A stretch of 64,000 nt of DNA, taken from assembly GCA_015143295.1 (NCBI GenBank), contig CM026570.1, positions 10,440,047 through 10,504,046 on the forward strand. Direction: 5' to 3'. The position numbers and the translations under genes were made by a program. Under the pieces are notes generated by a model. That model did not search any database and was not told the DNA's origin. It saw only the letters and a list, made by a program, of their open reading frames with translations. Origin of the DNA: Tetracentron sinense. Its lineage: Eukaryota > Streptophyta > Magnoliopsida > Trochodendrales > Trochodendraceae. The first letter of the stretch is position 1. Each line of letters begins with the position of its first letter. Shown in pieces: positions 7,310-61,613 of this stretch.

Positions 7310-7556
7310 GTAGTGAAGAAAAACTGATTTATTGAGAATTCTTGGATGATTTACAATGACCCCATAAAGGGTTTAAATAGATGTTTCATGCCAAGACTCT
7401 TAATATAGAAAGATCTCTCAAAGATAATCCTAATCTAATCATACCTAATCAAATCTTAAATTCAAATTTAATTGATACTATCTAATTGAGAAGAGATACA
7501 CTGATAATGATACAGTGTATCTCATTCACTTTATTACAATAGGATATTTCTTAATA
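7310..7556 (-). repeat. Solo LTR of the TRIM-A family
   Basis: Homologous over its whole length to the two LTRs at 58321-58553 and 59644-59879: AAAAACTGATTTATTG at one end, TACCTAATCAAAT in the middle, and GTGTATCTCATTCACTTTAT near the other. It sits only 9 bp from the CACTA terminus, and its other side abuts the broken NLR fragment at 7565. No internal region or partner LTR is present here. No target duplication recognised. Confidence 0.7.
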
Positions 7557-7564
7557 TGCAGAGC

Positions 7565-7956
7565 ACTTTAGCTGGAGGCAATGTCTCAGCCACTTCATTG
7601 AAAACCCCTTCAGTTCTTAAATTTATCACAGCTGTTAACCTCTTTCGCTACTGTCTCTCCGATCTTGTAGCTTGAACAAAAGGTCTTGGGGTAGCAACCT
7701 CCGAGACACGTCTTTGAAATCTGTTATGAACATTTGATAAGTAGTTCCACTTCACGTTCCATTTCTTCCACCATTTGGAGCCAGGTCGCCACTGGTTCTC
7801 TGCGCCTCATTTCGTTCCCCTCTGCTTCTTCCACCTTTCTCTTAACCTCGTTCGGTTGCTCCTCAATGCCCGCATTTCAGACCTTAGAGCACTGAGATTT
7901 GATTCGAGTTCACGGATGTAAATTGTACGTGTAACGATCGGGCTCACAAAATCCAT
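7565..7956 (-). pseudogene. NLR gene fragment: coiled-coil start of an RPS5-like protein
   Basis: Reading on the minus strand from ATG at 7956: MDFVSPIV, then RTIYIRELESNLSALRSEMR, then frameshifts. Other frames continue with WLQMV-like sequence and end near LPPAKV. It aligns with residues about 1-145 of genes A, B and D but lacks about 13 codons after MDFVSPI, has internal stops, and ends at 7565 where the TRIM solo LTR begins. The sequence upstream (7957-8450) also resembles the 5' flanks of A and D (GATTCTAAGCTTAC, CCCATAATTTCCTG), so this is a promoter-bearing 5' fragment of a former family member. Confidence 0.8.
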
Positions 7957-13468: not shown

Positions 13469-14330
13469 TCAATTTGGCTTGAAAGTATTGTAGTTTTTCC
13501 CTATGCTCAGACCCTCTTTGATACTTGAATCTTTGATCGAAAAACAATTCAAGGGGATCACGTCGACACCGATGGCATCTATAAAATGGCCAGACCGACC
13601 ATGGAATCCTACAATCACATTGCCTTTCATCGCTAAGGAGAAATGGTCCATACTAATTTTTACTTGTGATTAAATGGAGAGATATTACCATGATCAGTCC
13701 ATGTCCGTTGATGTAGACGATGCTGTATGACCCGCCTATAGATGTTAGATACTCATGAGGCCAATCAAAATCATTCTTATCAGTGTTGGGCCCTTCGGCT
13801 CCGAACTTCATCTCACCCTCATAGTGGGCTTTGCAGCTCCATCAGTGATTGTAATCTGCGTTATCTCACCTTTGGCAATGTGACTCTAGTGAGTGTCACT
13901 CCCTCCTCCCCATCGTCCCACCGAGATTGCCTCCTCCTCCTCCTCCTCCTCCATAATAACGACAAGCAAGAACCCTAAAATTAAAAATACAAATTACGCG
14001 ATGGTAGTTGTTACTTGGTAGTAAAGCGGAACCCTTTTTTCGGACAAGATCCTTATGTACCAAAGCAAATTTTCTCAATAGTTTTACTGCATTGTTCCAC
14101 TCATGGGGAGCCTTCTTGGCAGCCATGGTCTGACCAATGGTGATGAGTGCAAGTGGTAAACCCTCGCATTCTAAGGCAAAGCTAGCTTTAGTATTTGATT
14201 GTGAGATTTAAGAGACTCCTCTCCAACAGTCATTTGAGAGCCTCCTCTCCAACCTAAGCAATCTGTTTTGAAACTTTTTGAGCCAATATCATCTGTAGAC
14301 TCAACCTCATTGCAAGCAACTATATGAAGC
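13469..14330 (-). pseudogene. NLR-jacalin fusion pseudogene
   Basis: From 14330 downward: degenerate NB-ARC sequence (remnants equivalent to the WDLF...GKEALN...ALECKGLPL region), then MAAKKAPHEWNNAVKLLRK at about 14126, then a jacalin-like exon with GGGGGGGG, and a C-terminal frame IVGFHGRSGHFIDAIGVDV ending at 13469. Frameshifts and stops break both exons. The donor region reads TTGGTACAT instead of GGTAAG, and the acceptor CAG before the acidic run is lost (ATTATGGAGGAG). Exons 1 and 2 are in the same order and orientation as in A, B and D. The first half of the gene (CC and P-loop) is missing. Confidence 0.8.
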
Positions 14331-15109: not shown

Positions 15110-17635
15110 TCATACCCCATTTGGATTGAATGCTTCTTCTATGCCCACACCAGGGCCATCATCGATTGAAAGACAATTCAAGGGCTTCACGTAGACTCCG
15201 ATGGCATCCACTAAATTGGAAGACCGGCCATGGAATCCCACAATCACACCGCCATTCATCCCTAAGGAGAATGGCGTGGCATGTTCCCACCCAAATGGTC
15301 CATGCTCCTTCTTATTTGTAATTAAACGGAGAGATGATACAATGATCGGTCCCTGTCCATTGGTGTAGAACGGGTTATATGTTCCGCTTATAGACGTTAT
15401 ATACTCGTGAGGCCAATCAAAATCAATCGAAGTAGTGTGTTCCCCCCCAGGGCCTCCAAACTTCATCACACCCTTATCGTGGGTTTTGAAGCTAATGTAA
15501 TCAATCGCCGCTCCGTGACTGATTGTAATCTGTGTTATACCACCTTTGACATTGTGACTCCAGTGAGTGCCACCCCCTCCTCCCCATGGTCCCACTGAGA
15601 TTGCTTCCTCCTCTTCCTGCACCATAACAATAAATAATAATCCTAGTAAAAAATTTGTAAGGTCGGTTCTAAGTGTCGGTGCAGATATCAAAGAGATTAG
15701 CTCGAAGGCTTTGGGATACCCTCGGTTACCAAAATTAAAATAAAAGAGAATAATTATGAATAGGAACTCTCGTTGAACAGTCAACCAATTTAACAAAAAA
15801 TTTGTCTTGGGAATTGGGATTTATGGAAAAAAGAGTTCTCTTAAAAAACACGCTTCTTGTGTTTATAATTACCAAACTACCTTCCCAAGGCAAATTTTAG
15901 GTTGAACCGTTGATTATCCAACTAAAGCTCCTATTCATAGTTGTTCTCATAAAATAAATGAGCCAAATCATCTACGGTGATAATCGGATTTGACAAATCC
16001 GATTACCACCCTTGGAGGTCACCACGTGTCTCCTTTGACACCACCAAGCTAGATAGTCTCCTATCACTAAGCTCACCAACCAACCTGGACTTTGATTCTT
16101 ATTATTCCTACAGGATATTGAGAAAGTTCCGGTAGTTCTCAACGGACTTGTAGAATAATACTTAATGTTCACCCACCCCTAAGGTTCACCCATTTATCTT
16201 TGGTTTTTTTTTTAATATTAATTCTTTTTTTTAATTAAAAAACTGTATTTAATATGAAAAAATCTCTAAAAACAGTTTTTTTATTTTAAAAAAAGAATTC
16301 AATTTTTTTTTTTTAAAAAAAGGATGGGTGGGTGATTCTTACCCACACTTAAGGGGTGTCAAAGGAGACACGTGGCAACCTCTACGGGTGATAACCGGAT
16401 TTGCCAAATCCGGTTATCACCGTAGATCGATGATTTGGCTCCTAAAATTAAAATAGCACACCACTTCTTTTTACAGACAAGATACTTACCAATGTGGATT
16501 TCCTCAATAATTTTAATGCATCATTCCACTCATGTGGAGCCTTCTTTCCGGCCATGGTCCGACCAATGGTGTTGATTACAAGTGGTAAACCCTTGCATTC
16601 TAAGGCAACTCTAGCAGCTAACTCAGGTATTTGATGATGTAAATTGAGAGCCTCCTTTCCAACAGTCATTTTGAATAGATCCCATGCTTCTTTCCAACCC
16701 AAGCATTCTGCTTTAAAATTCTTTTGAGCCAGCATGCGTAAACTCACGGCCTGGGACCGAGTAGTGAATACTACTTTAGAATTGTTTGTACTGTTGGGAC
16801 GTGGAATTCCAACATCTTCAAAATCAACAGGATCCCATATGTCATCCAACAACAATACAAATCTTTTCATGCTCAAGACATTAAAGATGGCTCTAGCACG
16901 CACTGCATCATGACTCTCGTCTTCTGACAATTTCAACCCCAACCTCTCCCCGATGTTCTTCTGAACCTTCCTCACCTTTGATTCTTTGGACACCTCGACC
17001 CATATCACCAAATCAAAATCATGGGCTCCTCGGTGGAGAAACTCGTTATTGATTTTCTTCAAGAGTGTTGTCTTTCCAACACCTTCCATGCCGTATATCC
17101 CAATAATTCCTACCTCATCTTCTTCTGCAAGGCACTTCCAAACATTCTCGAGCATCGAATCCATGCCCACCGTCGCTCTACTGGGCATTTCATCCACCTT
17201 AGCCAAAGCCAATGGATCAGCCACTTCATTGAAATTCCCTTCGGTTATTAACTTTGTTACAGCTATTGTCTTTTCCACTACTCTCTTTCCGATCTTGTAG
17301 GTGGAAGAAGAGAAACAGAAACAGTTCTTGGGACAGCAACCTCCGAGGCACATCTTTGAAAGCTGTTGAGAAGCTTCTTCTATAGCTACTTCCACTTCAC
17401 GTTCCAATTCTTCCACCATTTGGAGCCAGGTTTCCACTGGTTCTCTACGCCTCATTTGCTTTTCCTCGGCAACTGCGACCTTTCTCTTTACCTCATCACT
17501 TTCACCCCTTAATTTGTACATTTCAGACCTTAGAGTGTCGAGATTTGCTTTGAGATCACAGATGTAATTTGTACGCGATGCACCGCAATCCCATAACCTA
17601 GAGATGATTTCAATGATTGGGCTCACAAAATCCAT
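15110..17635 (-). CDS. NLR-jacalin gene A: CC-NB-ARC(partial)-jacalin lectin fusion, 550 aa
   Basis: Two exons: 16490-17635 (382 codons) and 15110-15616 (168 codons plus stop), joined GTAAGT...CAG in phase 0. Exon 1 has an RPS5-type coiled coil (residues 1-130, WLQMVEE near 70-76, GGCCPKNC near 98-105), P-loop GMEGVGKTT at 182-190, kinase-2 LLLDDIW at 261-267, RNBS-B SKVVFTTR at 286-293 and GLPL at 349-352, and stops after EWNDALKLLRKSTL. Exon 2 is a jacalin-like beta-prism lectin: AISVGPWGGGGG, ISFKTHDKG, FDWPHEYITSISG, GVIVGFHGRS, DAIGVYV. The second ARC subdomain, RNBS-D, MHD motif and LRR are absent. Start chosen at MDFVSP (17635), as in the paralogues; an in-frame ATG three codons upstream exists. 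Probable role: intracellular immune receptor or decoy, cytosolic. Transcription is unproven. Confidence 0.8.
15960..16441. mobile_element. Foldback MITE (family 1) inside the intron of gene A
   Basis: Terminal inverted repeats GAGCCAAATCATCTACGGTG and its complement, followed by GATAACCGGATTTG and a palindromic stretch, enclose a 482-bp AT-rich element. The subterminal segments hold CACGTG at 16023-16028 and 16369-16374. It accounts for most of the 873-bp intron; paralogues B and D have introns of 185 and 87 bp. A near-identical element lies at 38995-39363. No clear target duplication here. Confidence 0.85.
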
Positions 17636-21476: not shown

Positions 21477-21849
21477 GGCTCAGGATCCTCTCGAGTTCAA
21501 CTTGAGAGAATCCCTCGAGTTGGAACCCCTAGAGGTCACCACGTGTCTCCTTTGACACCCCTTAACCATGGGTAAGGTTCACCAACCCCTAGGGTTCATC
21601 CATCCATCCTTGGTTTTTTTTTAAAAAATATTAATTCTTTTTTTAAAATTAAAAACTTTTTTTAATATAAAAAAAACTCTAAAAACAGTTTTTTAATTTA
21701 AAAAATAATAATTAATATATATAAAAAAACTAAGGATGGGTGGGTGAACCTTACCCATGATTAAGGGGTGTCAAAGGAGACACGTGGCGACCTCTAGGGG
21801 TTCCAACTCGAGGGATTCTCTCGAGTTGAACTCGAGAGAATCCTGAGGG
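21477..21849. mobile_element. MITE family 1b, 373 bp, perfect 9-bp target duplication
   Basis: Termini GGCTCAGGATCCTCTCGAG and, as complement, CCCTCAGGATTCTCTCGAG. Flanked by TTAAAAAAT at 21468-21476 and 21850-21858. The right terminus is adjacent to a second CTCGAG-based palindrome. It carries CACGTG near both ends. Confidence 0.9.
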
Positions 21850-23779: not shown

Positions 23780-23993
23780 TATATGTAGAGATGAGTTGAT
23801 ACAACTTGTTTAACAAATTCTGTTCTAACTATACAGCTGTTCTAACTATACAAACTGAACTAACTAACTAACTAACTAACTAATTCCAGCTCATTAACTA
23901 ACTCTTGGTTTGATCTCTTCTTACTGACTTGCCTTTATTTCTTCATGTGCAGCACTCTTTTCCATTACTCTTTTCAATTCGTGCTGTCTAATA
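23780..23993 (-). repeat. 3' LTR of the copia element, truncated
   Basis: Appears identical to 28591-28804 throughout. The homologous U5 end is replaced by unrelated sequence (AACATAGCAATGCTGT). Confidence 0.9.
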
Positions 23994-24000
23994 CTCCCCC

Positions 24001-27000
24001 TCAAGATGAGGAGTAAATATTATGAAGACTCATCTTGGACACTAAAGGATGAAAAACAGAGTATCCAAGAGCCTTAGTAAAAATATCGGCCAACTGATGT
24101 TGAGAAGAGACATGGAATGTTCGAATGATACCCATTTGAAGCTTCTCTCGTACGACATGACAATCTATGTCTATATGCTTCGTACGCTCATGAAAAACGG
24201 GATTAGCTGCAATATGCAAAGCTGCCTTACTGTCACAATAGAGCAAAGCAATCTGAGGAGTTACTTGAAGATCTTGGAGAAGAGCTCTAAGCCAAACAAT
24301 CTCACAGCATGTAGACGCCATGGCTCTGTATTCAGCCTCAGACGAGGATCTGGACACAGTAGTTTGTTTCTTTGATTTCCAAGATATCAAAGAATTATCT
24401 AGGAATATACAGAAGCCTGTAACTGAACGTCTTGTATCAGAACACCCAGCCCAATCTGAGTCACAAAAGGCCTTGAGTTGCAGTGAAGACTTGGCTGAGA
24501 AGAACAAGCCTTGACCTGGAGAGGCTTTGATATATCTGAGAATCCGATTGGCAGCAGCTAAATGAGTACTCCTTGGATTTGCCATAAACTGACTAAGCAC
24601 TTGGACAGAGAAGGAGATATCAGGTCTTGTTATTGTGAGATAGAGTAACCTCCCAACCAGCCTTCTATAAGAAGTGGGATCATCTAGAAGAGTACCCGAA
24701 TCCTTTGAAAATTTAACATTGGGTTCCATGGGAAAGTTTACTGGTTTTGAAGCCAAAAAACCAGTGTCTTCCAGAATTTCCAATGCATATTTTCTCTGAC
24801 TAAGAGAAATCCCAAGCTCAGTTCGAGCTATCTCCAAACCAAGAAAAAATTTCAGTGGTCCAAGGTCCTTCAATTTGAACTTATCATTAAGAACCTGGAT
24901 GAATTGTGAAACTGCTACTGAATTATCACTTGCAAGTACGATATCGTCTACATAAACAAGTAAGGCAATAAAGGAAGAATCCTGAGTTCTTGTAAACAAA
25001 GTATAGTCTGCCTTAGATTGAACAAAACCAAACTCTAGTAAAGCAGAGGAAAACTTTGCAAACCATTGCCTCGACGCTTGTTTTAACCCATAGAGTGATT
25101 TATTGAACTTGCATACCTTGGACTCCCCCTTACTACTGAATCCGGGAGGCATTGTCATGTAGACCTCTTCATCTAGATCTCCATGGAGGAAAGCATTGTT
25201 TACATCTAGCTGGTGGAGGTGCCAATTTCTAGCAGCGGCAATTGCAAGAAGAGTTTTCACAGTGGTGAGCTTGGCTACGGGGGAAAAGGTTTCATAATAA
25301 TCTAGACCTTCACTTTGATTGTATCCCTTAGCAACTAGTCTTGCCTTATATCTCTCTATAGTCCCATCAGACTTCAATTTTACCTTATAAATCCATCGAC
25401 ATCCAATAGATTGTTTTGATTGAGGAAGATCAACAACAGTCCAAGTATCATTCAGTTCAAGGGCCTTTATCTCAGCAGCCATAGCTTCGCGCCACTCTTT
25501 ATATTGGACAGCTTGATGATAGTATTGAGGTTCAATAATAGAAGAGACCGAAAGGCTAAAGTTTTTCTGTTTAACAGAAAGTTTACTGTATGAAAGAAAA
25601 GAGGAGAGATCATAAAGCATACCTGAAGATGAAGGAGATGGGAAAGGTTTTGATGAGGAGTTAGCAAGATGACAATGATAATCATGCAAATATCCTGGTT
25701 TTTGTTTTACCCTAGACGATTTTCTAGTTAAGTGATGCAAGACATCTGAATTGGAAACTATAACTTCAGTGTTTGAACCAAGAACATCTGAAGATGGTTC
25801 TGAGTTGGAACGAATTTCAGAAGAGTCATGTTGTATAATCCGAGGAGAGGGTGGATTGAATGAAGATTCATGATCTTGAGCAGATAAAGGAATGACAGAA
25901 TTATGAAATGGTAAATTTGAAGAAGAAACAGGGTATTTGATAGCATATGGAAAGATAGTTTCATGGAATACAACATCTCGTGAAACAAACATAGATTTAA
26001 GATGTAAATCATATAATTTGTAACCTTTAATGCCATATGGATAACCAAGAAAAATGCATGGTCTAGCTCGAGGATCAAACTTATGCCTATTTCTTGTAAG
26101 TGTAGTTGCATAACATAGGCAACCAAACACACGCAAATGTGAGTAAGAAGGTGGTGATGAGAACAAGATTTCATAAGGAGTCTTGTTATTCAGAATAGGA
26201 GTTGGAGTTCTATTAATCAAATGAACAGCTGTAAGAATACAATCTCCCCAAAACGATAAAGGAAGGTGTGATTGAAATCGAAGAGATCGTGCTACATTCA
26301 GTATATGTTGGTGCTTTCGTTCAACCACTGAGTTTTGTTGTGGTGTCTCTACACAACTAAGCTGATGTATAACACCTTTTGATGCATAAAAATCACTCAT
26401 ATTGAACTCAAAGCCATTATCGGAACGCAAACACTTAATCTTAAGATTGAATTGTGTTTCAATCAGATCAAAGAAAGTCTGAATGTGACTCCTAGTTTGA
26501 GACTTATTTTGTAATAGATGAACCCATGTAAATCTAGTATGATCATCTACAATTGTAAGAAAGTAAGAAGAACCACTAAGTGATTTTGTGGAGAAAGGTC
26601 CCCAAAGATCACAATGAATCAAATCAAAAGGATGCTGAGAAATGGATTCACTATGAGGAAACAATAGGCGATGTTGTTTAGCCAAAGGACAAATGCTACA
26701 AGATTTATTTGATGCATTAACAGACTGAGGAATTACATGAGATAACATTTTTAATGGAGTATCTGACAAGTGACCAAGTCTATAATGCCACAAACTATTG
26801 GCTACAGATTTATCAAGAAAACTAGTAGATGTTACATTATTGGAATGAAAAACAAGAGAGTTTGACAAAATAGAATTCAAAGGGAAAACCGAAACTGGAT
26901 TTTGCAGCAAGTAGTACAGACCTCCTTCATCTTTACCCACTCCAATCGTCGTCCATCTTGTAAGGTGCTGAATGAAACAGAATTTGGACAAGAAAATTAG

Positions 27001-28437
27001 ACAACAATGCATAGTTTTGATCAATTTGCTAACAGATATCAAATTGAAAGAAAAAGACGGAATACAGAGGACATTAGTTAAGATAAATGTTTCTGAAATC
27101 TTAACTGTGCCAACATGAGTGACAGATGCATGTTGTCCATTAGGTAGTCTTACTATTTTGGAAGTAACAGAAGTAATGGAGGTGAATAATGAAGTAGAAC
27201 AGATCATGTGATCCGTAGCTCCAGTATCAATGATCCATGGAGCATTAACAGAATTTGTAAAAGAGTTTTTCTGAAATAAAGAAGATGAAGATGCAAAAAC
27301 CGAATGTTTTGTATCTAAGTAAGAAGTTTGAGATGTAATCGAAACGTTACCTGCCATATTAGAAATCAAGTGATCTTGAGAAGAGGTAGAAGATACTTGA
27401 TTGGCAGATGACATAATTTCTGGAGATGGAGGCTTGAACATGTTCATGAGTTGCTGACATTGCTCATAAGTGATTGGGAGTTGAGGACTATCACTTTGAG
27501 AAACTTGATTAGCTGTATGAGAGATATTCTTGGCTTTGTTGAATTTATACCCCGGAGGAAATCCATGGAGCTTGTAACACTTTTCAATAGTGTGTCCAGT
27601 GATACCACAGTGCGAACATGTAGGGCGGTCCTTGCGATTCTGAGGTGCTTTGCTATTGGCATATCGATTTGGAGGTGCAGCCTTTGTGAGCAGAGCAGTG
27701 GTATTTTGATTGAATGAAGTGCTAGATACAGATATTGTACGTTGCCTCTCTTCTTGAAGCACAAGTGAGAAAACCTTATTTATAGGAGGCAATGGATCGA
27801 TCAACAAAATCTGACCCCTAATGAGTGAAAAACTTTCATTTAACCCCAAGAGAAACTGGTAAACATATTGCTGCTGATGATAAGTCATGAGAGTTTTGAA
27901 CGCACCACATGTGCAACTTGGAACTGGCTGATGATTCCCAAGTTCATCCCAGAGCCCTTTCAAGGAAGTAAAGTATGTACTCACCGAATCATTCTCTTGT
28001 GAAAGAAATGAGATAACCTTCTGAAGTTGGAAGATTCTTGGTCCATTGTGTTGTGAGAACCGATCATGGAGATCAGTCCACATCTCTGCGGCAGTATCAA
28101 TGTATATGATACTAGCTGCAATTTCTTTCGAGACAGAGTTCAGCAACCAGGAGAGTACCATATTATTGCATCGACACCAGATAGAACTCAGAGGATCAGA
28201 TGAGTTTGCTGGTTTAGTCAAAGAACCATCAACAAATCCGATCTTGTTCTTTGCCGTTAAAGCCATGACCATTGCTCTTTTCCATGAATTATAGTTGTCA
28301 TCAGTGAGTTGCTGTGAGACGAGCATAGCACCAGGGCTATCTCCATGATGCAGAAAAAATGGATTTGAAGAATCCATTTCAGAAGAAACAGGAGAAAGAG
28401 TTTCAATTTGGATAGGAGTTTCCATTGAAGAAAGCAA
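24001..28437 (-). CDS. Copia gag-pol polyprotein, 1478 aa, intact
   Basis: One uninterrupted frame. Domains in order: N-terminal [13 protein letters not shown] and UBN2-type gag (about 30-240); zinc knuckle [14 protein letters not shown] (274-287); aspartic protease DTGATDHM (about 400); integrase zinc domain and catalytic core with IHCDLWG (about 603), SDNGFEF (about 671) and the downstream glutamate in SVVERKHQH (about 705); reverse transcriptase from [11 protein letters not shown] to [12 protein letters not shown] (YVDD at about 1160); RNase H with CDSDWAG (about 1323) and [17 protein letters not shown]. All catalytic motifs checked are present, so this copy could supply active proteins. 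The TGA stop overlaps the polypurine tract. ATG at 28437 is the first start; a second in-frame ATG lies four codons on. Confidence 0.95.
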
Positions 28438-28524
28438 TGAAGAACACTCTGTTCTATGTGCAATAAACAGAAAAGAGAAAAAGAAACGAAAGAAGATGAA
28501 GTATTGCGGAAGAACTAGAGCAAT

Positions 28525-28537
28525 TGCTCTGATACCA
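28525..28537 (-). promoter_or_regulatory. Primer-binding site of the copia element
   Basis: On the minus strand TGGTATCAGAGCA follows directly after the LTR end ATTA at 28538. It pairs with initiator Met-tRNA. Confidence 0.9.
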
Positions 28538-28804
28538 TAATGAAAAATGATCTTATTTTTTCTTATTGGATTACAATTCGTTTGTACAGGTATATGTAGA
28601 GATGAGTTGATACAACTTGTTTAACAAATTCTGTTCTAACTATACAGCTGTTCTAACTATACAAACTGAACTAACTAACTAACTAACTAACTAATTCCAG
28701 CTCATTAACTAACTCTTGGTTTGATCTCTTCTTACTGACTTGCCTTTATTTCTTCATGTGCAGCACTCTTTTCCATTACTCTTTTCAATTCGTGCTGTCT
28801 AATA
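28538..28804 (-). repeat. 5' LTR of the copia element (267 bp)
   Basis: On the minus strand it starts TATTAGACAGCACGAATTG and ends TTTTTCATTA. It contains an ACTA-type microsatellite at about 28670-28692. Compared with it, the 3' LTR lacks 28538-28590. Confidence 0.9.
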
Positions 28805-32792: not shown

Positions 32793-34648
32793 TTATTTTG
32801 TCATACCCCATTTGGATTGAATGTATTGCAATGTTTCTTCTATGCCCACACCAGGCCCATCGTCCATTGAAAGACAATTGAAGGGCTTCACGTAGACACC
32901 GATGGCATTCATGAATTGGGCAGATCGACCATGGAATCCCACAATCACACCGCCATTCATCCCCAAGGAGAAAGGCGTGCCAAATTCCAACCCAAATGGT
33001 CCATGCTCCTTCTTATTTGTAATTAAACGGAGAGAAGTTACCACGATTGGTCCCTGTCCGTTCATGTGGTGGAACGTGCCATATGTTCCGCTTATAGACG
33101 TCAAATACTCGTGAGGCCAATCACAATAAATCGAACTAGTGTGGACCCCCCCAGGGCCTCCAAACTTCATCTCACCCTTATCGTGGGTTTTGAAGCTAAT
33201 GTAATCAATCCCTGATCCGTGACTGATTGTAATCTGTGTTATACCACCTTTGGCATTGTGACTCCAGTAAGTGCCAACCCCTTCTCCCCATGGCCCCACC
33301 GAGATTGCTTCCTCCTCTTCCTGCACCATAACAATATGCAATAATCCTAGTAAAAAATTTGCAAGGCCGGTTCCCGAGTGGGTCGATGCAGATATCCGAA
33401 ATGGACTAATCCTTGGCTCGAAGGCTTTGGGGACAGCCTTGGTTACCAAAAATAAAATAAAAATAAATAAAGCACAACCCTTCTTTTTACATACAAGATA
33501 CTTACCGATGCGGATTTCCTCAATAATTTTAATGCATCATTCCACTCATGTGGAGCATTCTTTCCGGCCATGGTTTGACCAATGCTGCTGATTGTAAGTG
33601 GTAAACCCTTGCATTCTAAGGCAACCCTAGCAGCTAACTCAAGTATTTGATGATGAGAATTGAGAGCCTCCTTTCCAACAGTCATTTGGAATAGATCCCA
33701 TGCTTCATTCCAACCCAAGCATTCTGCTTTGAAATTCTTTTGAGCCAGCATGCGTGAACTCACGGCCTGGGACCGAGTAGTGAATACTACCTTAGATTTA
33801 ATTTTGGCGTTGGGACGAGGAATTCCAACATCTTCAAAATCAAAAGGATCCCAAATGTCATCCAACAACAATACAAATCTTTTCTTGCTCAAGACATTAA
33901 AGATGACTCTAGCACGTACTGCATCATGGCTCTCGTCTTCTGACAATTTCAACCCTAACCTCTCCCCGATGTTCTTCTGAATCTTCCTCACCTTTGATTC
34001 TTTGGACACCTCGACCCATATCACGAAATCAAAATCATGGGTTCCTCGGTGGAGAAACTCGTTATTGATTTTCTTCAAGAGTGTTGTCTTTCCAACACCT
34101 TCCATGCCGTATATTCCGATAATTCCTACCTCATCTTCTTCTGTAAGGCACTTCCAAACATTCTCGAACATCGAATCCATGCCCACCGTCGGTCTGCTGG
34201 GCATTTCTTCCACCTTAGCCAAACCCAATGGATCAGCCACTTCAATGAAATTCCCTTCGGTTATTAATTTTGTCACAGCTACTGTCTTTTCCACTACTCT
34301 CTTTCCGATCTTGTAGCTGGAAGAATAGTAACAGTTCTTGGGACAGCAACCTCCGAGGCACATCTTTGAAAGCTGTTGAGAAGCTTCTTCTATAACTACT
34401 TCCACTTCACATCCCAATTCTTCCACCATTTGGAGCCAAGTTTCCACTGTTTCTAAACTCCTCATTTGTTTTTCCTCGGCTACTGTGACCTTTCTCTTCA
34501 CCTGATCCCTTTCACTCCTCAATTTACGCATTTCAGACCTTAGAGAGTCAAGATTTTCTTTGAGACCACAAATGTAAATTGTTCGCGATGCACAACAATC
34601 CCATAACCTACAGATGATGTCAATGATTGGGCTCACAGCAGAATCCAT
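32793..34648 (-). CDS. NLR-jacalin gene B: CC-NB-ARC(partial)-jacalin lectin fusion, 556 aa
   Basis: Exons 33506-34648 (381 codons) and 32793-33320 (175 codons plus stop). The 185-bp intron has GTAAGT donor and CAG acceptor, phase 0. Start placed at MDSAVSPIIDII; the open frame extends 20 codons further up but that sequence aligns with the 5' untranslated region of A. P-loop GMEGVGKTT, kinase-2 LLLDDIWD, RNBS-B SKVVFTTR and GLPL are present; exon 1 ends LKLLRKSAS. The jacalin exon has AISVGPWGEGVGTYWS, MKFGGPGGVHTSS, EYLTSISGTYG and GVIVGFHGRSAQFMNAIGVY. It lacks ARC2, MHD and LRR. No internal stop, so purifying selection on the fusion is plausible. Probably a cytosolic immune receptor or sensor; divergent from gene C. 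Confidence 0.82.
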
Positions 34649-35488: not shown

Positions 35489-35624
35489 AGGAATGGTAGA
35501 TGGAATAGGCACTTGCCTCAATATCAATTCGGGCTCATTATAAAATCACCGAAATTACAGGAATTCTGCGGAAAAAGTCAAGATTCTTTAAAGATAAGCA
35601 CAAAACTGAAAATAATAATTTAAT

Positions 35625-36020
35625 GGCTCAGGATTCTCTCGAGTTCAAACTGGGGAGACTCTCTCCGGTTTGAACCCCTAGAGGTCGCCATGAGTCTCCT
35701 TTGACACCCCTTAACCATGGGTAAAGTTCACCCGCCCCTAGGGTTCACTCACCCATCCTTTTTTTTTTAATTGTATATTAATTATTATTTTTCAAATTAA
35801 AAAAACTGTTTTTAGAGTTTTTTAAATATTAAAAACAGTTTTTAATTTAAAAATAATAATGATTAATATATATAAAAAAAAAAAAAAAGGATGGGTGGGT
35901 GAACCCTAGGGCGGGGTGAACCTTACCCATGGTTAAGGGGTGTCAAAGGAGACACATGGCGACCTCTAGGGGTTCAAACCGGAGAGTCTCCACGGTTTGA
36001 ACTCAAGAGGATCCTGAGCC
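35625..36020. mobile_element. MITE family 1b, 396 bp, with 9-bp target duplication and an empty site in the window
   Basis: Termini GGCTCAGGATTCTCTCGAG and the complement of GATCCTGAGCC. Flanked by TAATTTAAT at 35616-35624 and 36021-36029. The paralogous flank of gene A (about 18360-18385) has a single uninterrupted TAATTTAAT. This comparison proves insertion after the A/B duplication and fixes the 9-bp duplication, hence a Mutator-like origin. Confidence 0.95.
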
Positions 36021-36497
36021 TAATTTAATTGTTAAAATGACCAAACTAACTGAACTAACATTTTTAAGAAGAGAAAATAATTGGGTTCTCAGCCTTACCA
36101 CCCTCACGCCTTAGTTGGCTGTGTAAACAAAAGGGTTGGGCCTGGTCATCAGTTCAAATTCTCACTTGTCCCATTCTGGGTTTATGCAATGAAGCATTCG
36201 TTCTCTAAATTTTTTCCGGTTCAACGATAGAGAGTTAGGCTGCAACCCAGCTAGCAAGGTTACTATCTGTTCTGGGTTAATATTAGTCAAGAATGAGTGG
36301 TGGATATTCAACCATCACGCCCACTATGGACTTGATCCCAGATCAAACGGGTGGTGACATGCACACACTACCAGTGGGCCGAACATTGCTAGTTATCTAT
36401 AATTTTCTACTAAATATGATTTAAGATCAAATGAAAAAGATAGAAGGATGGACAAGTTAGGTTTTTTAACCTTCTAATTAAGGATGGTTTTTAGAGG

Positions 36498-38960: not shown

Positions 38961-38994
38961 ACACTAATCACTGCTCCTTTGCTAATTAGGGATA

Positions 38995-39363
38995 GGAGTC
39001 AAATCCTCTACGGTGATAACCGGATTTGGCAAATCCGGTTATCACCCCTAAAGGTCACCACGTGTCTCATTTGACATCCCTTAACCGTGGGTAATGTTCA
39101 CCAATCCCTAGGGTTCACCCACCTATTTTGTTTTTTTTTTTTTAAATATGAATTCTATTTTTAAAATTAAAAAACTGTTTTTAAAGTTTTTTTAATATTA
39201 AAGACAGTTTTTTAATTTTAAAAGAAGAATTAATTTTTTTTTAAAAAACCAAAAATAGGTGGGTGAACCTTACCCACGGTTAAGGGGTGTCAAAGGAGAC
39301 ACATGGTGACCTCTAGGGGTGATAACCGGATTTGCCGGTTATCACCGTTGATGATTTGGCTCC
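38995..39363. mobile_element. MITE family 1, 369 bp
   Basis: Ends GGAGTCAAATCCTCTACGG and, as complement, GGAGCCAAATCATCAACGG, each followed by the palindrome GATAACCGGATTTGG/CAAATCCGGTTATC. Core carries CACGTGTCTC. Closest relative is the intronic copy in gene A (15960-16441). Confidence 0.85.
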
Positions 39364-39366
39364 TTA

Positions 39367-42042: not shown

Positions 42043-44805
42043 ATGGAAGCTGTGAGCCCCATCACCGACATCATCTACAGGGTATGGAATTGCATTGCAG
42101 TGCGTACTGACTATGTCCGTGAACTCCAAGAAAATCTCAATGCTTTGAGGTCTCTAATGGAAGAATTGAGGAGTCTAAGGAATGATGTGAAGAGAAGGGT
42201 CAATATCGCCGAGGGACAACAATTGAGTCGACGTAGAGACCAAGTGGAATTGTGGCTCCAAATGGTAGAATCCACGGAACATGAAGTGGATCAAATTATA
42301 GAAGAGGGTTTTCAACAAATTTCAAATACATGTCTCGGAGGTTGCTGCCCCAAGCACTGTTGCTTTAGCTACAAGGTCGGCAAAAAAGTAGCCAAAAAGC
42401 TAAAAGTGGTGACAGAATTAAGAAGCAAAGGAGATTTCGGTGAAGTGGCTTATGTATTGCCTCCAGCTGTGGTGGAAGCCATGGCCAGTAGACCGACTGT
42501 GGGCATGGACTTGATGTTTGAGAATGTCTGGAGGTGCCTCAGAGAAGAAGATCAAGTGAGGATTATAGGACTTTACGGCATGGGGGGTGTTGGAAAGACG
42601 ACCCTCTTAAAGAAAATCAATAATGAATTTGTCGACCGAGGAACCAATGATTTTGATGTGGTGATTTGGGTGGTGGTGTCTAAAGAATCAAACGTTATGA
42701 GGGTTCAAAAGATCATCGGGGATAGGTTGGGGTTGTCACTGCAAGAAGATGAAAGTCATGATGCAGCGCGTGCTTCACGCATTTATAGTGTCTTAAGCAG
42801 CAAAAAATTCCTGCTGTTATTGGATGACATTTGGGATCGAGTGGATTTGGAACTAGTGGGAATTCCTCATCCTGATAGTAAAAACAAGTCTAAGGTTGTA
42901 TTTACTACTAGATCTGAGGCCGTATGTGGACGTATGGAAGCTCAGAAGAAGCTCAGAGTAGAATGTTTGAGTTGGAATGAAGCGTGGGATCTATTTCGAA
43001 ACAAAGTAGGAGAAGAGGTCCTCAATTCTGATCCAAAAATACCTGAACTAGCTAAAGTTATTACCAGAGAGTGTGCAGGTTTACCACTTGCACTCATCAC
43101 TATTGGCCGGACCATGGCTAGCAAAAAGACCCCCAATGAGTGGAAGCACGCTATAACAGTATTGAGGAAATCCACATCGGAGTTTTCAGGTATGGGAGAT
43201 GAGGTTTTCCCTCTTTTAAAGTTTAGCTATGATAGCTTACCCAATGATATTATTAGATATTGTTTCTTATTTTGTGCTATGTTTCCCGAAGACTATAACA
43301 TGGAAAAAAAATATCTCGTACAACATTGGATTTGGGAGGGGTTTATAGATGGATTTGATGTAATGAATGAAGCTAGTAACCAGGGATATGATATCATTGG
43401 AACTCTAAAGCTTGCGTGCTTGTTGGAAAGTGGCTTCATTGAGGATACACAAGTGAAGATGCACGACGTCATCCGTGACTTAGCATTATGGATATCTTGT
43501 GATTGTGGAAGGAAACAAGGTAAGCTATTGGTGCAAGCGCGCATTGGGTTGACTGAAGCACCTGGTGTTGAGAAATGGCAAGAGACAGAGAGGGTATCAC
43601 TTATGGAAAATAATATTAGAGCATTAACTGAAACACCCACATGCCCCAACCTTTTAACCTTGCTTCTCAACGGCAATAGATCATTGGAGAGGATAACCGA
43701 TGGCTTCTTCAAATTTATGCATATTCTTAGAATTTTAGATTTGTCAATGACCTCTATTGGAGAACTCCCAGTGGGGATAGTTGAATTGGTTGAGTTGCTA
43801 TGTCTTAATCTATCAGGAAGTTCAATACATACATTGCCTGATGAGTTGAAACTTTTAGTCAAGCTAAAGTATTTGGATTTGAGTTATACAAATTTTCTGA
43901 CAACAATTCCAATTAAAGTAATATTAAGGCTTCCAAGATTGCAAGTGTTGAACCTATATACTAGTAGTTATGGGGATTGGGAAGTGGATGGAGACGACGT
44001 ATCCAGCTTAGTTGAATCGGGATGCTTGAAACATTTGAAAGATGCTGGAATCACTATAAGAACTGTACCATTTCTCGAAAAGTTCTTCAACTTCCACAAT
44101 TTATCAAGATGCACAAGCTCTTTACTTATAGAACGGTGTAAAGGTTTGACCACACTTCCTCTATCACCATCATCATCAGACACTTTTTTTGAAAATATGA
44201 AGTGCCTAAAAGATCTTTATCTTAATAATTGTTTAGACTTGGAAGAGTTGACATTTAGTTGGGTGGTGGTCACAGAAGGAGAGAAAACCATACCCCTGAA
44301 CCTTGAGACACTGATCCTCACCAATCTCCCAAAACTTAAGATCATAAGAGATGTAGCTCATCCATTCTTTCAAAACCTTGCCTTCATACAAATTTTAAAC
44401 TGCGATGCACTGAAGGATCTTACATGGCTTATTGGTATTCGGAACCTCCAAACACTTACTTTATGCTCATGCATAGGGATTGAAGAAGTAATATATGGTG
44501 AAATTGCAGTGGTGGAAGAAAAGCTCACTACTTTCTCAAGGCTCAAAGTTATACACTTACAAGAATTACCAAAATTAAAGAGCATCTATCGGAACGCCCT
44601 GCCTTTCCCTTCCTTGCTGACAATGGAAGTTCATGGCTGCCCAAAACTGAAGAAGCTCCCATTCAACTCCAACAGTGCCAAGAGCACCTTAACTTTGATT
44701 AGAGGGGAGAAGAATTGGTGGGACCAATTAGAATGGGAGGATGAAGCCGTCAAGTCTGATTTCCTTCCTAATTTTTCTTGGTACTCATCTCCCACCTTTT
44801 TCTAG
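42043..44805 (+). CDS. Gene C: full-length CC-NB-ARC-LRR immune receptor, 920 aa
   Basis: Single exon, no introns. RPS5/RPS2-like class. Coiled coil 1-130 (WLQMVEST near 71-78, GGCCPKHCC near 99-107), TVGMD at about 152, P-loop GMGGVGKTT at 179-187, kinase-2 LLLDDIWD at about 258, RNBS-B SKVVFTTR, GLPL at about 346, RNBS-D CFLFCAMFPEDY at about 407, MHD at about 473. LRRs from about 540 to 900, including LRILDLSMTSIGELP and LKYLDLSYTNFLTTIP. Length is normal for the family, and the NB-ARC motifs needed for ATP binding and switching are all there. No obvious N-terminal MG acylation motif. It is on the opposite strand to A, B and D, and is the only complete NLR in the window. Start is the first ATG and matches the MDxVSPI start of the paralogues. 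Confidence 0.95.
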   Translation: MEAVSPITDIIYRVWNCIAVRTDYVRELQENLNALRSLMEELRSLRNDVKRRVNIAEGQQLSRRRDQVELWLQMVESTEHEVDQIIEEGFQQISNTCLGGCCPKHCCFSYKVGKKVAKKLKVVTELRSKGDFGEVAYVLPPAVVEAMASRPTVGMDLMFENVWRCLREEDQVRIIGLYGMGGVGKTTLLKKINNEFVDRGTNDFDVVIWVVVSKESNVMRVQKIIGDRLGLSLQEDESHDAARASRIYSVLSSKKFLLLLDDIWDRVDLELVGIPHPDSKNKSKVVFTTRSEAVCGRMEAQKKLRVECLSWNEAWDLFRNKVGEEVLNSDPKIPELAKVITRECAGLPLALITIGRTMASKKTPNEWKHAITVLRKSTSEFSGMGDEVFPLLKFSYDSLPNDIIRYCFLFCAMFPEDYNMEKKYLVQHWIWEGFIDGFDVMNEASNQGYDIIGTLKLACLLESGFIEDTQVKMHDVIRDLALWISCDCGRKQGKLLVQARIGLTEAPGVEKWQETERVSLMENNIRALTETPTCPNLLTLLLNGNRSLERITDGFFKFMHILRILDLSMTSIGELPVGIVELVELLCLNLSGSSIHTLPDELKLLVKLKYLDLSYTNFLTTIPIKVILRLPRLQVLNLYTSSYGDWEVDGDDVSSLVESGCLKHLKDAGITIRTVPFLEKFFNFHNLSRCTSSLLIERCKGLTTLPLSPSSSDTFFENMKCLKDLYLNNCLDLEELTFSWVVVTEGEKTIPLNLETLILTNLPKLKIIRDVAHPFFQNLAFIQILNCDALKDLTWLIGIRNLQTLTLCSCIGIEEVIYGEIAVVEEKLTTFSRLKVIHLQELPKLKSIYRNALPFPSLLTMEVHGCPKLKKLPFNSNSAKSTLTLIRGEKNWWDQLEWEDEAVKSDFLPNFSWYSSPTFF

Positions 44806-45278: not shown

Positions 45279-45283
45279 ACAAC

Positions 45284-46180
45284 TGTAACGGATAAAATTC
45301 GTAAAACCAACTCAGCGTTGAGGGACGAGCTCGTTTTTGTCGTTTTGTTCACGAAAGTGACATGTGACACAAGTTGGGGTCACGAGCTTAAAATATCGGG
45401 GTCACACGTTGTCCGATGCACAACGATCCCGTTGTGCGCATTACGACGTCTTTGTTCCCTTGCAGAACAACGTTTCCGTTGTGACTTTGACGACGTGCTC
45501 GTTGTCTAAAGCACAACGTGAACATTGTGCTCTTGACAACGTCGTTGTCGTTGTGCGAACAACGAGACCGTTGTCTCACCGACAACGAGGTCGTGCTGTG
45601 TTTTGAGGCATCTACGCCGTAACCGAGCTTGGGTCAACAACGAGACCGACTCGTAGGAGGAAGTGATCAGGAGGCGATCCATAATTCCGACAAGTGTGCC
45701 GAACTCGCCGTTTCGTGCCGAAAGCACTGTCCTGGCATTTAATGCTAGTCACTTCTGCGTACCGTCCGATCCCGTCCGATTGGACTTATAGGAGGCTCTC
45801 ACGTGTAATGCAACCGACAGCAGATATATCTCAGATATTTGGCAATGAGTGCTAAGACACGTGGTATGGACACCTATGGCCATCCATGGTCATCGATGGC
45901 CATACCAACCTTGCCCTATATAAACCCCGTGATTTTTAGTGCACAGGACACTGAATGATTAACCCAGATCCGAGAATACGTGTTCAGTGCTCCTAGTGCC
46001 TTGAGTATTTTTCAGTGTTTGTTCTTGTGCTTACTGTTCACCATCTTCTACCCCTACTGACTTTACCAGCGGAGTACAGGTCAGGGTGCCACACCCTCCG
46101 CTCCAACCTTCTACCAGTAAACCAGGACGTGGAAGTAGCTGCTGCTGACGCGTGTCCGTCCGGTAATTTTTCCCCACACA
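45284..46180 (+). repeat. 5' LTR of the gypsy element
   Basis: Starts TGTAACGGATAAAATTCGT and ends TTTTTCCCCACACA. TATA box TATATAA at about 45917-45923. A palindromic block ATGGCCATCCATGGTCATCG lies just upstream (45879-45905). 45400-45640 is packed with CGTTGT/ACAACG hexamers. Confidence 0.95.
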
Positions 46181-46183
46181 AAA

Positions 46184-46202
46184 TTGGCGCCGTCTGTGGG
46201 AA
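46184..46202 (+). promoter_or_regulatory. Primer-binding site of the gypsy element
   Basis: TTGGCGCCGTCTGTGGGAA, three bases after the 5' LTR; typical of plant Tat/Athila-type elements. Confidence 0.85.
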
Positions 46203-46237
46203 CTAATAAACGAACCCCCCCTTCGCTCTCTGTGATC

Positions 46238-52017: not shown

Positions 52018-53104
52018 AATCTGAGATATGCTGTTTACATGCATCGTTGTGCTTACAAGTTTTTCAGTGATCTTACACAATCATAATGCTCATATTTCAA
52101 CATGTGATTTGCTATATTATGTGCCTGCTCGTTGTGTGCCCGTTCATTGTCTACACTGTTCTCTGTCTGGTTCATGAGTGTAATATTGTGAATGTTTTGC
52201 AAGTAATTCAAATAAAGTTTTGACCGAACAACGTACTCATGACGAACACGAGTGGCTTATATAAGGATGTCATCTGAGCAAATTGAGTGGCTTAACCTAA
52301 TGACATCCTCTGAGCATGTGCTTCGGAACTGAATTACATTGCGTTCGTCTTATGAATTTTATTTGTCAGATTGCATTCACAGTGAATTACGCGAATGGTG
52401 TGTCTGGATCAGTGCTTGCTCGCAATGCTTGTTCATAAGTGATTTTTCGTAGTGCTTTGCTCATGGTGAACGATCGTAGTGCTTTGCTCATGGTGAACGA
52501 TCGTAGTGCTTTGCTCATGGTGAACGACCGTAGTGCTTTGCTCATGGTGAACGACCGTAGTGCTTTGCTCATGGTGAACGATCGTAGTGCTTTACCCGTA
52601 GTGAACGATCGTAGCGTTTTACCCGTAGTGTTATCTCGTGGTGCTTTGATCATAGTACTTAATCGTAGTGCTCTACTAGTAGTGCTTGTTCGTTGTGCTT
52701 TGATCATAGCGCTCTACTCATAGTGTTCTGCTCGTAGTGTTTTGATCAAAATAATTTATTTAGTGTGCAACAGTTATAATTACCACGAATATTCAAACAT
52801 TCACATAGCGAAGTACCGCCTTAACATCGGTACAGTGGACTGTGAAAAATCATTCAGCTACTCACATTGTGTTTTTTCTTATTCTGTGTGCATGCGTCGC
52901 ACTACGCTACGAGGTGAAAAGAAGTGCAAACACAAATAAAAAAGAGAAGAGTGATCTATTCATGTCAAAAGCCTATTTCTGGGCAATAACAGTGATAACC
53001 TCCCATAGGAGAGAAAAAGGAGAATTTACATCAACAAAAGAGAGAAACTGAAACATAGGAAGGGGCAAGGGATCAGAAGAGCAGGAGATCGGAGGGACAG
53101 CAGG
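52018..53104. other. Spacer between pol and the antisense gene, with minisatellite
   Basis: Non-coding in either direction apart from the repeat at 52440-52735. Several AATAAA-like signals for the sense transcript near 52210. 52740-53050 has no recognised feature. Confidence 0.6.
52440..52735. repeat. 27-bp minisatellite of the gypsy element
   Basis: Unit GATCGTAGTGCTTTGCTCAT followed by GGTGAAC; five to six nearly identical copies at 52452-52590 followed by about five diverged copies (CGTAGCGTTTTACCC, CGTGGTGCTTTGATC). Same unit length as the array in the solo LTR at 22240, but a different sequence. Open frames on both strands here are artefacts. Confidence 0.9.
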
Positions 53105-55572: not shown

Positions 55573-55829
55573 GGTGATTGGAAGAAACAGCGAAGAAGGG
55601 CAAAAACAGTAAACAGAGTAGACAGAGCAGAATCACTCTGAGAACCAGAGAAGAGGGAAATGGAGAAACAGTAAAGAAATAATAAGAGATAGGGGTGAAG
55701 GGCGTACCGAACCAAAGAACTCAGAGATATTGTTGAAGAGCTTGAGGAAGATGAACTTTCAGATGAGAAGAGAATTCGGCAGAGTAACAGTGCTTGATGA
55801 AACAGGGTGAAAGAGAAGGAGGATTCGGT

Positions 55830-55843
55830 GGGATTTTATAAGC
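55830..55843 (-). promoter_or_regulatory. Candidate TATA box of the antisense gene
   Basis: On the minus strand GCTTATAAAATCCC lies about 260 bp upstream of the ATG at 55572. The intervening leader is A/G-rich with no upstream ATG of note. This implies a promoter separate from the LTR. Confidence 0.6.
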
Positions 55844-56177
55844 ATCTCCGATTTGTGAAAGTACGCCACTGCCCTTCATCTAAGCCGTACACCTGTGTCA
55901 GCGGAAATGAAAGTAGTGGCAAGACCGTCTTTTCACCAAATAGAGTAACCGTCAGGGTCATTAAAACGTTTGAAATTCAAATCGACGATGATGACAGCCT
56001 GTCCGCATTAAAGAGACGTGACGGTTCGCACGCGTAACCAGCTGACGTGAACGGTCGACCTTCCCAGCAAGCGTTTAAAGCACGCAACGTTTCGTCTTCC
56101 GGAGCAGTGCCAGGTATGATCTTTTTGTCCGTTTATGACGCTTCGAACTACGTTCCAAGCATCATAAAGGGGCAAAT

Positions 56178-57074: not shown

Positions 57075-57079
57075 ACAAC

Positions 57080-58320: not shown

Positions 58321-58969
58321 TAAAAACTGATTTATTGATTATTCTTGGATGATTTACATTGATCCTAAATAGGGTTAATATAAATTTAACAAGATAGACT
58401 TTTATGGAAAGGAAATCAACCTAATCTAATCATACCTAATCAAATATATTCTATCCTTGATTGATGTCAATCTAATATTGTGATGAGATACACTTAAATG
58501 ATTTAGTGTATCTCATTCACTTTATTACAATGCCCTTACTATATTCTCTAAGATTCCCTCTCAAGCTCATATGGATTGAAAATCTTCATGGGTTTGCTGC
58601 AATTTGAGTACTCCCTTTGTACATGAAGAACTAAATTACTTAACTATGCTTGGTAGTCACCACCAGTCTGTGAAGTTTATCTCTGTTGCATCCCGCTCAT
58701 ATTTATGAGTCTGTCAGAGCCGGTAGCCCACTAGATCAAGTTGTCATGATCATCTTCCCAAAGCACTTAAAGAATAATTTACAATGTGAAGAAAAAATCT
58801 CATTAGAGAGGTCTTCAATTAATAAAAGGAGACACTTATTACGGCTCATCCCATAATAGGTATATTAAAGATCACGTTGATTTTCATGCTTTGCATTGTG
58901 ATGAGGATGCTCGAGTGACATTGAATGCTTTGGTGATCTCTGAAAGAGAGCTGAAAATATAATAGCAAG

Positions 58970-59900: not shown

Positions 59901-61613
59901 TTATGCCCACCCCAGGGCCCTCTTTGATACTGGATCTTCGATCAAAAGATATTTCATGGGCTTCACGTAGACGCCGATGGCATCCATGAATTGGCCAGCC
60001 CGTCCATGGAATCCCACAATCACTCCGCCTTTCATCGCTAAGGAGAAAGGCGTGCCAACTTCCAAACCAAATGGTCCAAACTCCCTCTTATTTGTAATTA
60101 AACGGAGAGATGTTACTACGATCGGTCCCTTTCCGCTGATGTAGACCGTGCCATATGATCCACTTATAGACGTCAGATACTCGTGAGGCCAATCAAAATC
60201 AATCCTACTAGTGTTGGGGGCCCCATCACCTCCAAATTTCATATCACCCTTATCGTGGGTTTTGAAGCTAATGGAATCAATCCCAGCTCCGTGAGTGATT
60301 GTAATATGTGTTATACCACCTTTGGCATTGTGACTCCAGTAAGTGCCACCCCCTCCTCCCCATGGCCCCACCGAGATTGCTTCCTCCTCTTCCTGCAACA
60401 TAACAACAAACATGAAATAAAAAATACGCAAGGATTGTTAGTAAAACGCAACCCTTCTCTTTACATATAAGATCCTTACCGATGCGGATTTTCTCAATAG
60501 TTTTATTGCATCGTTCCACTCATGGGGAGCCTTCTTACTAGCCATGGTCTCACCAATAGTGACGAGTGCAAGTGGTAAACCCTCGCATTCTAAGGCAACT
60601 CTAGCAGCTAGCTCGGGTATTTGATGGTGAGAATTGAGAGCCTCTTTTCCAACTGTTTTTTTAAATAGATCCCATGCTTCATTCCAACCCAAGCATTCTA
60701 CTTTAAAATTCTTTTGAGGTAGCATGCGTAGACTCACGGCTTCGGACTCGGTAGTGAATACTACCTTGGACTTATTTTGACCATCGGGACGAGGAATACC
60801 AACATCATCAAAATCTACTCGAGTCCATATGTCATCCAACAACACTACAAATCTTTTCTTGCTCAAGACATTAAAGATGACTCTGGCACGCGCTGCTTCC
60901 TGGCACTCATCTTCTGACAATTTCAACCCCAATCTATCCCCAATGTCCTTCTGAACCTTCTTCACATATGATTCTTTGGACACGTCGACCCAAATCACTA
61001 CATCAAAATCGTGGGTTCTTCGGTGGAGAAACTCATTATTGATTTTCTTTAAGAGTGTCGTCTTTCCAACACCTCGCATGCCGTATATTCCAATAATTCC
61101 TACCTCATCTTCTTCTGTGAGGCATTTCCAAACATTCTCAAGCATCGAATCCATACCTACCATGGGTCTGCTGGGCATTTCTTCCACCTTAGTCAGAGTC
61201 AATGGATCAGCCACTTCAACGAAATTCCCTTCGTTGATTAATTTTTTCACAGCTGTTAGCTTTTCCACTACTGTCTTTCCAATCTTGTAGCTTGAACAAC
61301 AGTTCTTTGGACAGCAACCTCCGAGACACATCTTTGAAATCTGTTGAGAACCTTCTTTTATAACTACTTCTACTTCAACTTCCATTTCTTCCACCATTTG
61401 GAGCCAGGTTTCCACTGGTTCTCTGCGCTTCATTTGTTTCTCCTCAGCTTCTACCACTTTTCTCTTCACCTCATCCCTTTCACTCCTTAATTTCCGCATT
61501 TCAGACCTTAGAGAGTTGAGATTTTCTTCGAGTTCACAAATGTAAAATGTACGTCGTGCACCGCAATCCCATACCTTAGAGATGATGTCAATGATTGGGC
61601 TCACCAAATCCAT
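59901..61613 (-). CDS. NLR-jacalin gene D: CC-NB-ARC(partial)-jacalin lectin fusion, 541 aa
   Basis: Exons 60480-61613 (378 codons) and 59901-60392 (163 codons plus stop). The 87-bp intron has GTAAGG donor and GCAG acceptor, phase 0 as in A and B. Start at MDLVSPIIDIIS. P-loop GMRGVGKTT (arginine instead of glycine or glutamate at position 3), kinase-2 VVLLDDIWT, RNBS-B SKVVFTT, GLPL; exon 1 ends LLRKSAS. Jacalin exon: AISVGPWGGGGGTYWS, MKFGGDGAPNTSR, EYLTSISGSYG, GVIVGFHGRAGQFMDAIGVY. The C-terminus is frameshifted: the frame ends KRALGWA, while another frame still spells EGPGVGIKEK, the ending of A and B. A TRIM composite lies 22 bp beyond the stop. The lectin fold is probably complete, since the lost residues are a C-terminal tail. 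Confidence 0.8.

Follow-up and report, generated by a model that had tools for sequence, protein, structure and literature searches.

A tandem family of predicted CC-NBD-HD1-jacalin genes without winged helix or LRR in Tetracentron sinense

Three minus-strand genes (A, B and D) in a 64,000-nucleotide stretch of Tetracentron sinense DNA (C20:10440047-10504046, hereafter the window; 1.16 Gb of genome was searched) appear from their sequence to be genuine two-exon genes, with predicted products of 541-556 residues in the order CC - NBD - HD1 - jacalin. The winged helix (WHD) and the LRR are absent, both exons evolve under purifying selection, and the NB exons of the family form one clade. Splicing of the two exons and the resulting protein, as well as the partner and ligand considered below, are what we infer from these features.

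Gene structure

Exon 1 of A, B and D consists of 378-382 codons and exon 2 of 164-176 codons including the stop. Both are multiples of three, the introns are GT-AG and of phase 0, and the joined frames of 550, 556 and 541 aa, respectively, are open up to a single terminal stop (Table 1). In exon 1 the Pfam NB-ARC match ends at profile position 226-227 of 248, and exon 2 carries a whole Jacalin domain (PF01419, 1-136 of 136, E 3e-37 to 7e-34). Matches to Rx_N had E values of 4e-4 (A), 1.2e-6 (B) and 6.7e-5 (D), the curated cut-off being passed in B only. The best PDB hits of the D jacalin were solved mannose/glucose and Parkia lectins. Based on the presence of both domains, the open joined frame and the splice signals, NB-ARC and jacalin probably lie in one gene in all three. 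A repeated NLR-jacalin fusion with frames, splice sites and phase kept in three copies had been proposed in a first-pass annotation, and is borne out by the exact coordinates and Pfam matches; the pseudogene which it placed at 13469-14330 was also recovered (matches at 13508-14311).

Table 1. Location of the fusion genes, related loci and gene C. Positions without a contig prefix refer to the window; c1-c5, E and F are names coined in this analysis.
Feature	Location	Strand	Description
Gene A exon 1	16490..17635	-	CC + NBD + ARC1/HD1, 382 aa
Gene A intron	15617..16489	-	873 nt, GTAAG...CAG
Gene A exon 2	15110..15616	-	Jacalin domain
Gene B exon 1	33506..34648	-	CC + NBD + ARC1/HD1, 381 aa
Gene B intron	33321..33505	-	185 nt
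Gene B exon 2	32793..33320	-	Jacalin domain; GG loop and GXXXD-type site altered
Gene D exon 1	60480..61613	-	CC + NBD + ARC1/HD1, 378 aa; RNBS-B = TTE
Gene D intron	60393..60479	-	87 nt; branch-point-like stretch TTTTACTAAC
Gene D exon 2	59901..60392	-	Jacalin domain; GXXXD-type site intact
Gene C	42043..44805	+	Full-length RPS5/RPS2-like CNL; divergent to B; candidate partner, comparison
c1	C20:10395521-10397565	-	Decayed
c2	C20:10402014-10404165	-	NB exon kept; jacalin frameshifted
c3	C20:10428671-10430579	-	Decayed
c4	7564-7956	-	CC remnant only; adjoins LTR-like repeat 7317-7540
c5	13508-14311	-	End of NB-ARC exon and frameshifted jacalin exon
E	C20:10546149-10547869	-	Both exons open
F	C20:10552618-10554479	-	Both exons open

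With CC plus NB and no LRR, A, B and D are truncated CN (CC-NBD) genes, and they depart from the canonical NLR-ID layout of NBD, HD1, WHD and LRR. Gene C possesses a winged helix and LRR_RPS2 (Pfam); identity of A, B and D to it (62-65% of amino acids over 379-387 alignment columns, tblastn) makes them kin of RPS5/RPS2-like CNLs. No match to ARC2/WHD, MHD or LRR was found beside A, B or D, either by tblastn with full-length C or by Pfam, in agreement with the absence of ARC2, MHD and LRR that had been noted earlier. The possibility that the lost LRR part lies elsewhere in the window was rejected, tblastn with C having given none beside these genes.

Position of the truncation

A, B and D are homologous to C as far as the donor, where C reads ...AAATCCACATCGGAGTTT and D reads ...AAATCCGCATCG|GTAAGG. 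Past the junction C continues with EFSGMGDEVFPLLKFSYDSLP, the predicted start of its winged-helix part, and its WH_DRP match begins about 34 residues on. This alignment puts the cut between HD1/ARC1 on one side and WHD/ARC2 on the other; that it falls exactly on the HD1/WHD boundary is assumed from general knowledge of the fold. The NB-ARC is indeed truncated, as had been annotated, but the cut lies about 35 residues beyond GLPL rather than just past it. A four-row fold of the D NB exon gave a low-confidence model (pLDDT 60, pTM 0.36), the best PDB matches of which were plant CC-NLRs with TM-scores of only about 0.3. The last helix of the model ends at residue 377 of 378, at the junction (pLDDT about 46), which would weakly support the position of the cut. 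The single-sequence fold of the D jacalin exon was unusable (pLDDT 37).

Splice signals and introns

In divergent copies the donor is CATCGGTAAG or close to it, and the acceptor ends in TTGTTATGxTGCAG or TTGTTGTGTTGCAG. GGTAAG is common to the exons of A, B, D, E, c2, C11, C1463, C16:25.64 and C16:25.87; in F the donor reads GGTAATG, and at the jacalin-bearing C16 locus it has been lost. Between the introns of D and C1463 identity is 78% over the first 9 bases and 91% over the last 22, as against 13% and 23% in two inner stretches, in an ungapped comparison in which indels exaggerate the contrast between ends and middle. The closer copies A, B and E resemble D over intron bases 10-40 too (68-97%). 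Repeat-related sequence makes up a large part of the A intron: positions 15960-16444 belong to dispersed repeats (21479-21847, 35613-36034, 38994-39364) with internal inverted symmetry.

Tandem family on C20 and relics on other contigs

Ten related loci, all on the minus strand, were identified in 174 kb of C20 (10390001-10564046 less 46 bases), and nine have a jacalin match, c4 being without one. Both exons are open with splice signals in five loci (A, B, D, E and F), of which E and F lie outside the window; the other five are decayed. The layout is thus not restricted to the window, E, F and decayed copies beyond it having the same junction. The earlier argument against chance readthrough gains from these two open and several decayed copies, and readthrough or a misjoined gene model was rejected since further copies share the junction, the phase and the splice signals.

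At two C16 loci (25864918-25868328 and 26025660-26029070) NB and jacalin are both present; the NB frame is broken there and the donor is lost. The two loci are 160 kb apart with one mismatch in 2200 bases, representing either a recent duplication or an assembly duplicate. A broken NB-jacalin copy was found on C1463, and on C597 lies what resembles another copy of c1; nearly identical pairs such as these may stem from duplication in the assembly. At C16:25.64 Mb the NB exon and donor are kept with only a jacalin stub, and at C16:25.87 Mb the NB exon has a stop in frame, the donor is kept and again only a stub follows. NB exon and donor are also kept at C11:5.216 Mb, where no jacalin match was found in the following 3.9 kb.

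On C11 (L034, G000:C11:5212001-5217100, minus strand) this jacalin-less relative and its donor lie just before a serine/arginine-rich open frame, and the two can be joined by hand at phase 0 as a possible NB-SR exon fusion. No cyclophilin was found beside the C11 copy.

Origin and age of the fusion

Nine fused-lineage NB exons formed one group against seven CNLs with branch support of 99/98, the CNLs being C and six further matches whose full length was judged from open frames. The fused rows outside the tree were c1, c3, c4, c5, C1463, C597, C1125, C16:26033348 and the NB pieces of the two jacalin-bearing C16 loci; the C11 row was shortened by the start rule, in the tree as well as in the codon model. 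NG86 dS of the five open fusions was 0.44-0.50 against the C16:25.64 exon and 0.57-0.72 against three CNLs, so the fusion is old relative to the C20 cluster. The clade and these distances point to a single old fusion, followed by tandem expansion.

Seven non-fused jacalin domains from five loci were read: C2 and C6 have two each, and C17 and two separate places on C4 have one each. All are interrupted at about profile position 57-67, six by in-frame stops and that of C17 by a frame change, whereas the fused exons run through this position. Judged by these seven domains, the fused exon does not look like the native form of a jacalin gene, and the difference is suggestive of a donor that was processed or had lost its intron. 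The five non-fused loci (L024-L028, 10 kb each) gave no NB match. By such a route, an RPS5/RPS2-like CNL would have lost everything from the WHD onward in one old event and acquired, behind a new intron of phase 0, a jacalin exon in which the customary internal intron is missing; the CC-NBD-HD1-jacalin chimera would then have multiplied and decayed in tandem within a mixed NLR cluster.

Selection on both exons

Using a one-ratio codon model (in-house script, assumed topology), omega in the five open copies was 0.474 for exon 1 (p 5.6e-10) and 0.636 for the jacalin exon (LRT p 0.005), which show purifying selection on both. For the jacalin core alone it was 0.635 (p 0.017), and 0.568 when the C16 copy was added (p 0.00015); exon 1 in eight rows, including three without whole jacalin, gave 0.561. 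The first-pass annotation had named neutral evolution of the jacalin exon as evidence against a fusion; as a set these exons are non-neutral, although the upper limits for the single pairs A-B, A-D and B-D (omega 0.59-0.74) reach 0.97-1.16. Summed over ten pairs that are not independent of one another, pN/pS was 0.88 in the lectin binding loops and 0.55 elsewhere in the domain. The faster rate of the jacalin exon (0.64 against 0.47) fits relaxed constraint as well as recognition.

Nucleotide and sugar sites

P-loop and kinase-2 are kept in all five open copies and GLPL in four, E having GLPP. RNBS-B is TTR in A and B, TTE in D and E, and TTP in F. The sugar-binding site, which we take to be the one named GXXXD, is intact in D (GQFMD) and E (GIFMD). 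Glycine is missing from SNLVD (A) and ALYID (F), and glycine and aspartate from AQFMN (B), whose GG loop is GPWGE; the best solved lectins have GYYLD or GDYLD at this position. Non-fused jacalins vary here too (serine for glycine at C2 and C6, glycine for aspartate at C17), so a changed GXXXD is no proof of lost binding and a copy-by-copy division of ligands is weak. Of the term carbohydrate-binding, as first applied to the protein, the whole jacalin domain and the preserved site of D and E are in favour; for single copies it is uncertain, given the altered sites of B, A and F.

The RNBS-B arginine senses the gamma-phosphate. It is described as highly conserved in plant CNLs, but often absent in TNLs, RPP1 included (PMC8813719). 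Among CNLs its loss in D, E and F is therefore uncommon, though by itself not fatal, and in three of five open copies it may represent decay.

Possible function and candidate partners

In a resting NLR the WHD with its MHD is described as closing over ADP, and the contacts of the active ring as NBD-NBD and HD1-WHD (PMC8813719; NRC1, PMC6713354). A protein that lacks the WHD is therefore deprived both of this ADP lock and of a ring contact, one of the two described. The first reading of the protein as one without its off-switch holds in that the WHD/MHD lock is absent. That the protein would be free to switch on is not supported, the HD1-WHD interface being lost and a tagged, membrane-tethered Tm-2-2 CC-NB-ARC1 piece having caused no cell death (PMC7205312), and the missing arginine of D, E and F weakens a switch-on reading further. 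In the same source the Tm-2-2 CC-NB piece was inactive too, and mutation of the RNBS-B arginine in autoactive Tm-2-2 CC-NB-ARC blocked both death and self-association (PMC7205312).

Alone, the chimera could complete neither the ADP lock nor the HD1-WHD ring contact, and most likely would form no resistosome of its own. In D and E the jacalin domain would meet a glycan, in A, B and F a protein of pathogen or host origin; the CC-NBD-HD1 part would contact neighbouring full-length CNLs and permit, prime or restrain them. An old CNL-jacalin fusion acting as an accessory sensor or adaptor with full-length CNLs is the reading tentatively preferred here, at slightly less than an even chance. It is drawn by analogy with TN10, described as lying head-to-head with two clustered TNLs and associating with both (TN10 study), and with TN13, described as interacting with the CNL RPS5 (PMC8813719). 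Truncated CbCN is reported to promote resistance (CbCN study). A more specific version, in which a CNL has turned into a non-switching subunit that reads sugars or effectors with its NBD-HD1 docked on full-length CNLs of the same cluster, is doubtful; if true, the LRR-replaced-by-jacalin layout known from TIR-class Myrtaceae genes would have arisen a second time, in the CC class.

B and C are divergent and 7.4 kb apart. As proof, a paired-NLR layout was rejected: the ten fusions are all on the minus strand and the C-like CNL matches on the plus strand, so that head-to-head neighbours follow from orientation alone. The plus-strand array of C-like CNLs (C20:10409901-10605944), some full length by open frame and some broken, is partly interleaved with the minus-strand fusions. 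Beside the jacalin-bearing C16 fusion no match to a full-length CNL was found in the 40 kb read, and a pair is therefore not conserved there.

Alternative explanations

The two exons might never be joined, the NB exon reading into the intron to give a CN protein and the jacalin being made separately from an ATG nine bases before its exon. Such an in-frame ATG (ATGGTGCAG or ATGTTGCAG) is present in A, B, D, E and F, and the readthrough NB frames stop soon past the donor. However, the frames are separated by merely 87 nt in D and 95 nt in E, probably too little for a separate promoter; C16, whose jacalin frame is nevertheless open, and C1463 lack the ATG; and between D and C1463 it is the ends of the intron, not its middle, that are conserved. 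Separate transcripts are thus considered very unlikely. Decay of a once-useful fusion, with the family now dying and A, B and D its least damaged copies, is also unlikely, if less so. It would explain the five broken loci among the ten of the cluster, the broken jacalin-bearing C16 and C1463 loci, the copies without whole jacalin (C16:25.64, C16:25.87 and C11), the RNBS-B arginine lost from three open copies and the changed GLPL of E. Open frames in five copies with omega below 1 in both exons (p 5.6e-10 and 0.005) and the universal P-loop and kinase-2 argue against it, and turnover by birth and decay is usual for NLR clusters.

A chimera that acts by itself is the remaining alternative: it would be autoactive, or released by a ligand via the jacalin, and its CC would kill without partner CNLs. 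Autoactivity is described for the RPS5 CC-NB-ARC fragment, and in some NLRs a CC or NB piece on its own is described as causing cell death (PMC7205312). Against this stand the inactive Tm-2-2 CC-NB and CC-NB-ARC1 pieces and the arginine mutation that blocks death (PMC7205312), the missing arginine of D, E and F, and the part of HD1-WHD as one of two described ring interfaces (PMC8813719), which together make a stand-alone executor highly improbable.

Comparison with known systems

TIR-type NLRs with a C-terminal jacalin and no LRR are described in Melaleuca quinquenervia (PMC10720953), and four incomplete NBS-LRR genes with jacalin in Eucalyptus grandis (PMC4709456). These Myrtaceae genes resemble the present ones as incomplete NLRs with a jacalin, which in Melaleuca is C-terminal and in the place of the LRR, but they are of the TIR class, not of the RPS5/RPS2-like CC class; the passages on them do not give the end of their NB-ARC. 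An NLR-jacalin fusion found in six of eight grasses, judged ancient and sub-cloned from wheat cDNA (PMC4759884), likewise joins an NLR to a jacalin. The grass genes are integrated-domain NLRs, and a review places JRL domains in NLR-LRRs (PMC5536079), whereas WHD and LRR are absent here. CbCN, TN10, TN2 and TN13 have CC or TIR plus NB without LRR; their descriptions mention no lectin domain, in contrast to the jacalin of the present genes. RX-CC plus jacalin chimeras are listed in the review (PMC5536079), and one is an Rpi-ver1 candidate at a Solanum verrucosum resistance locus (PMC13232507). They too join an NLR-type coiled-coil to a jacalin, their descriptions leaving the presence of NB and the junction unstated.

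Among the matches listed from the open-licence literature, none described a CC-NB-jacalin gene without WHD and LRR. The truncated layout had been called unusual, and in those passages its CC-class form was not met; LRR-less TIR-jacalin NLRs and RX-CC-jacalin genes are, however, reported, which makes the layout less unusual than had been stated. Fusions of jacalin with other receptor types are already known from these sources, and the CC-class version without WHD and LRR is a variant of them.

If expressed, the family would show by natural example how much of NB-ARC is required in a recognition subunit, the predicted protein ending close to the HD1/WHD boundary, which has been explored with truncations in the laboratory. 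CC- and TIR-class receptors with the same replacement would suggest that a lectin can replace the LRR as reading domain, and the five open copies, differing at the nucleotide sensor and the lectin site, are ready-made variants to compare.

Mobile elements and repeats

Two LTR-like repeats (58322-58551 and 59649-59877, 97% identical) bound an insert that starts about 24 bases past the D stop, and a primer-site-like stretch (TGGTATCAG) follows the second. Over 31 exact bases the 3' flank of E matches what lies past the far repeat, so E apparently lacks the insert. The stretch 23780-28804, with a 1539-codon open frame and identical 214-bp ends, is presumably a Copia-like element and, from these ends, a very recent insertion. 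Just after gene C, 45281-57075 has ends of about 900 bp that are 98.6% identical, and is taken to be a Gypsy-like element. Positions 1770-2814 form a tandem array, its period being close to 82 bases.
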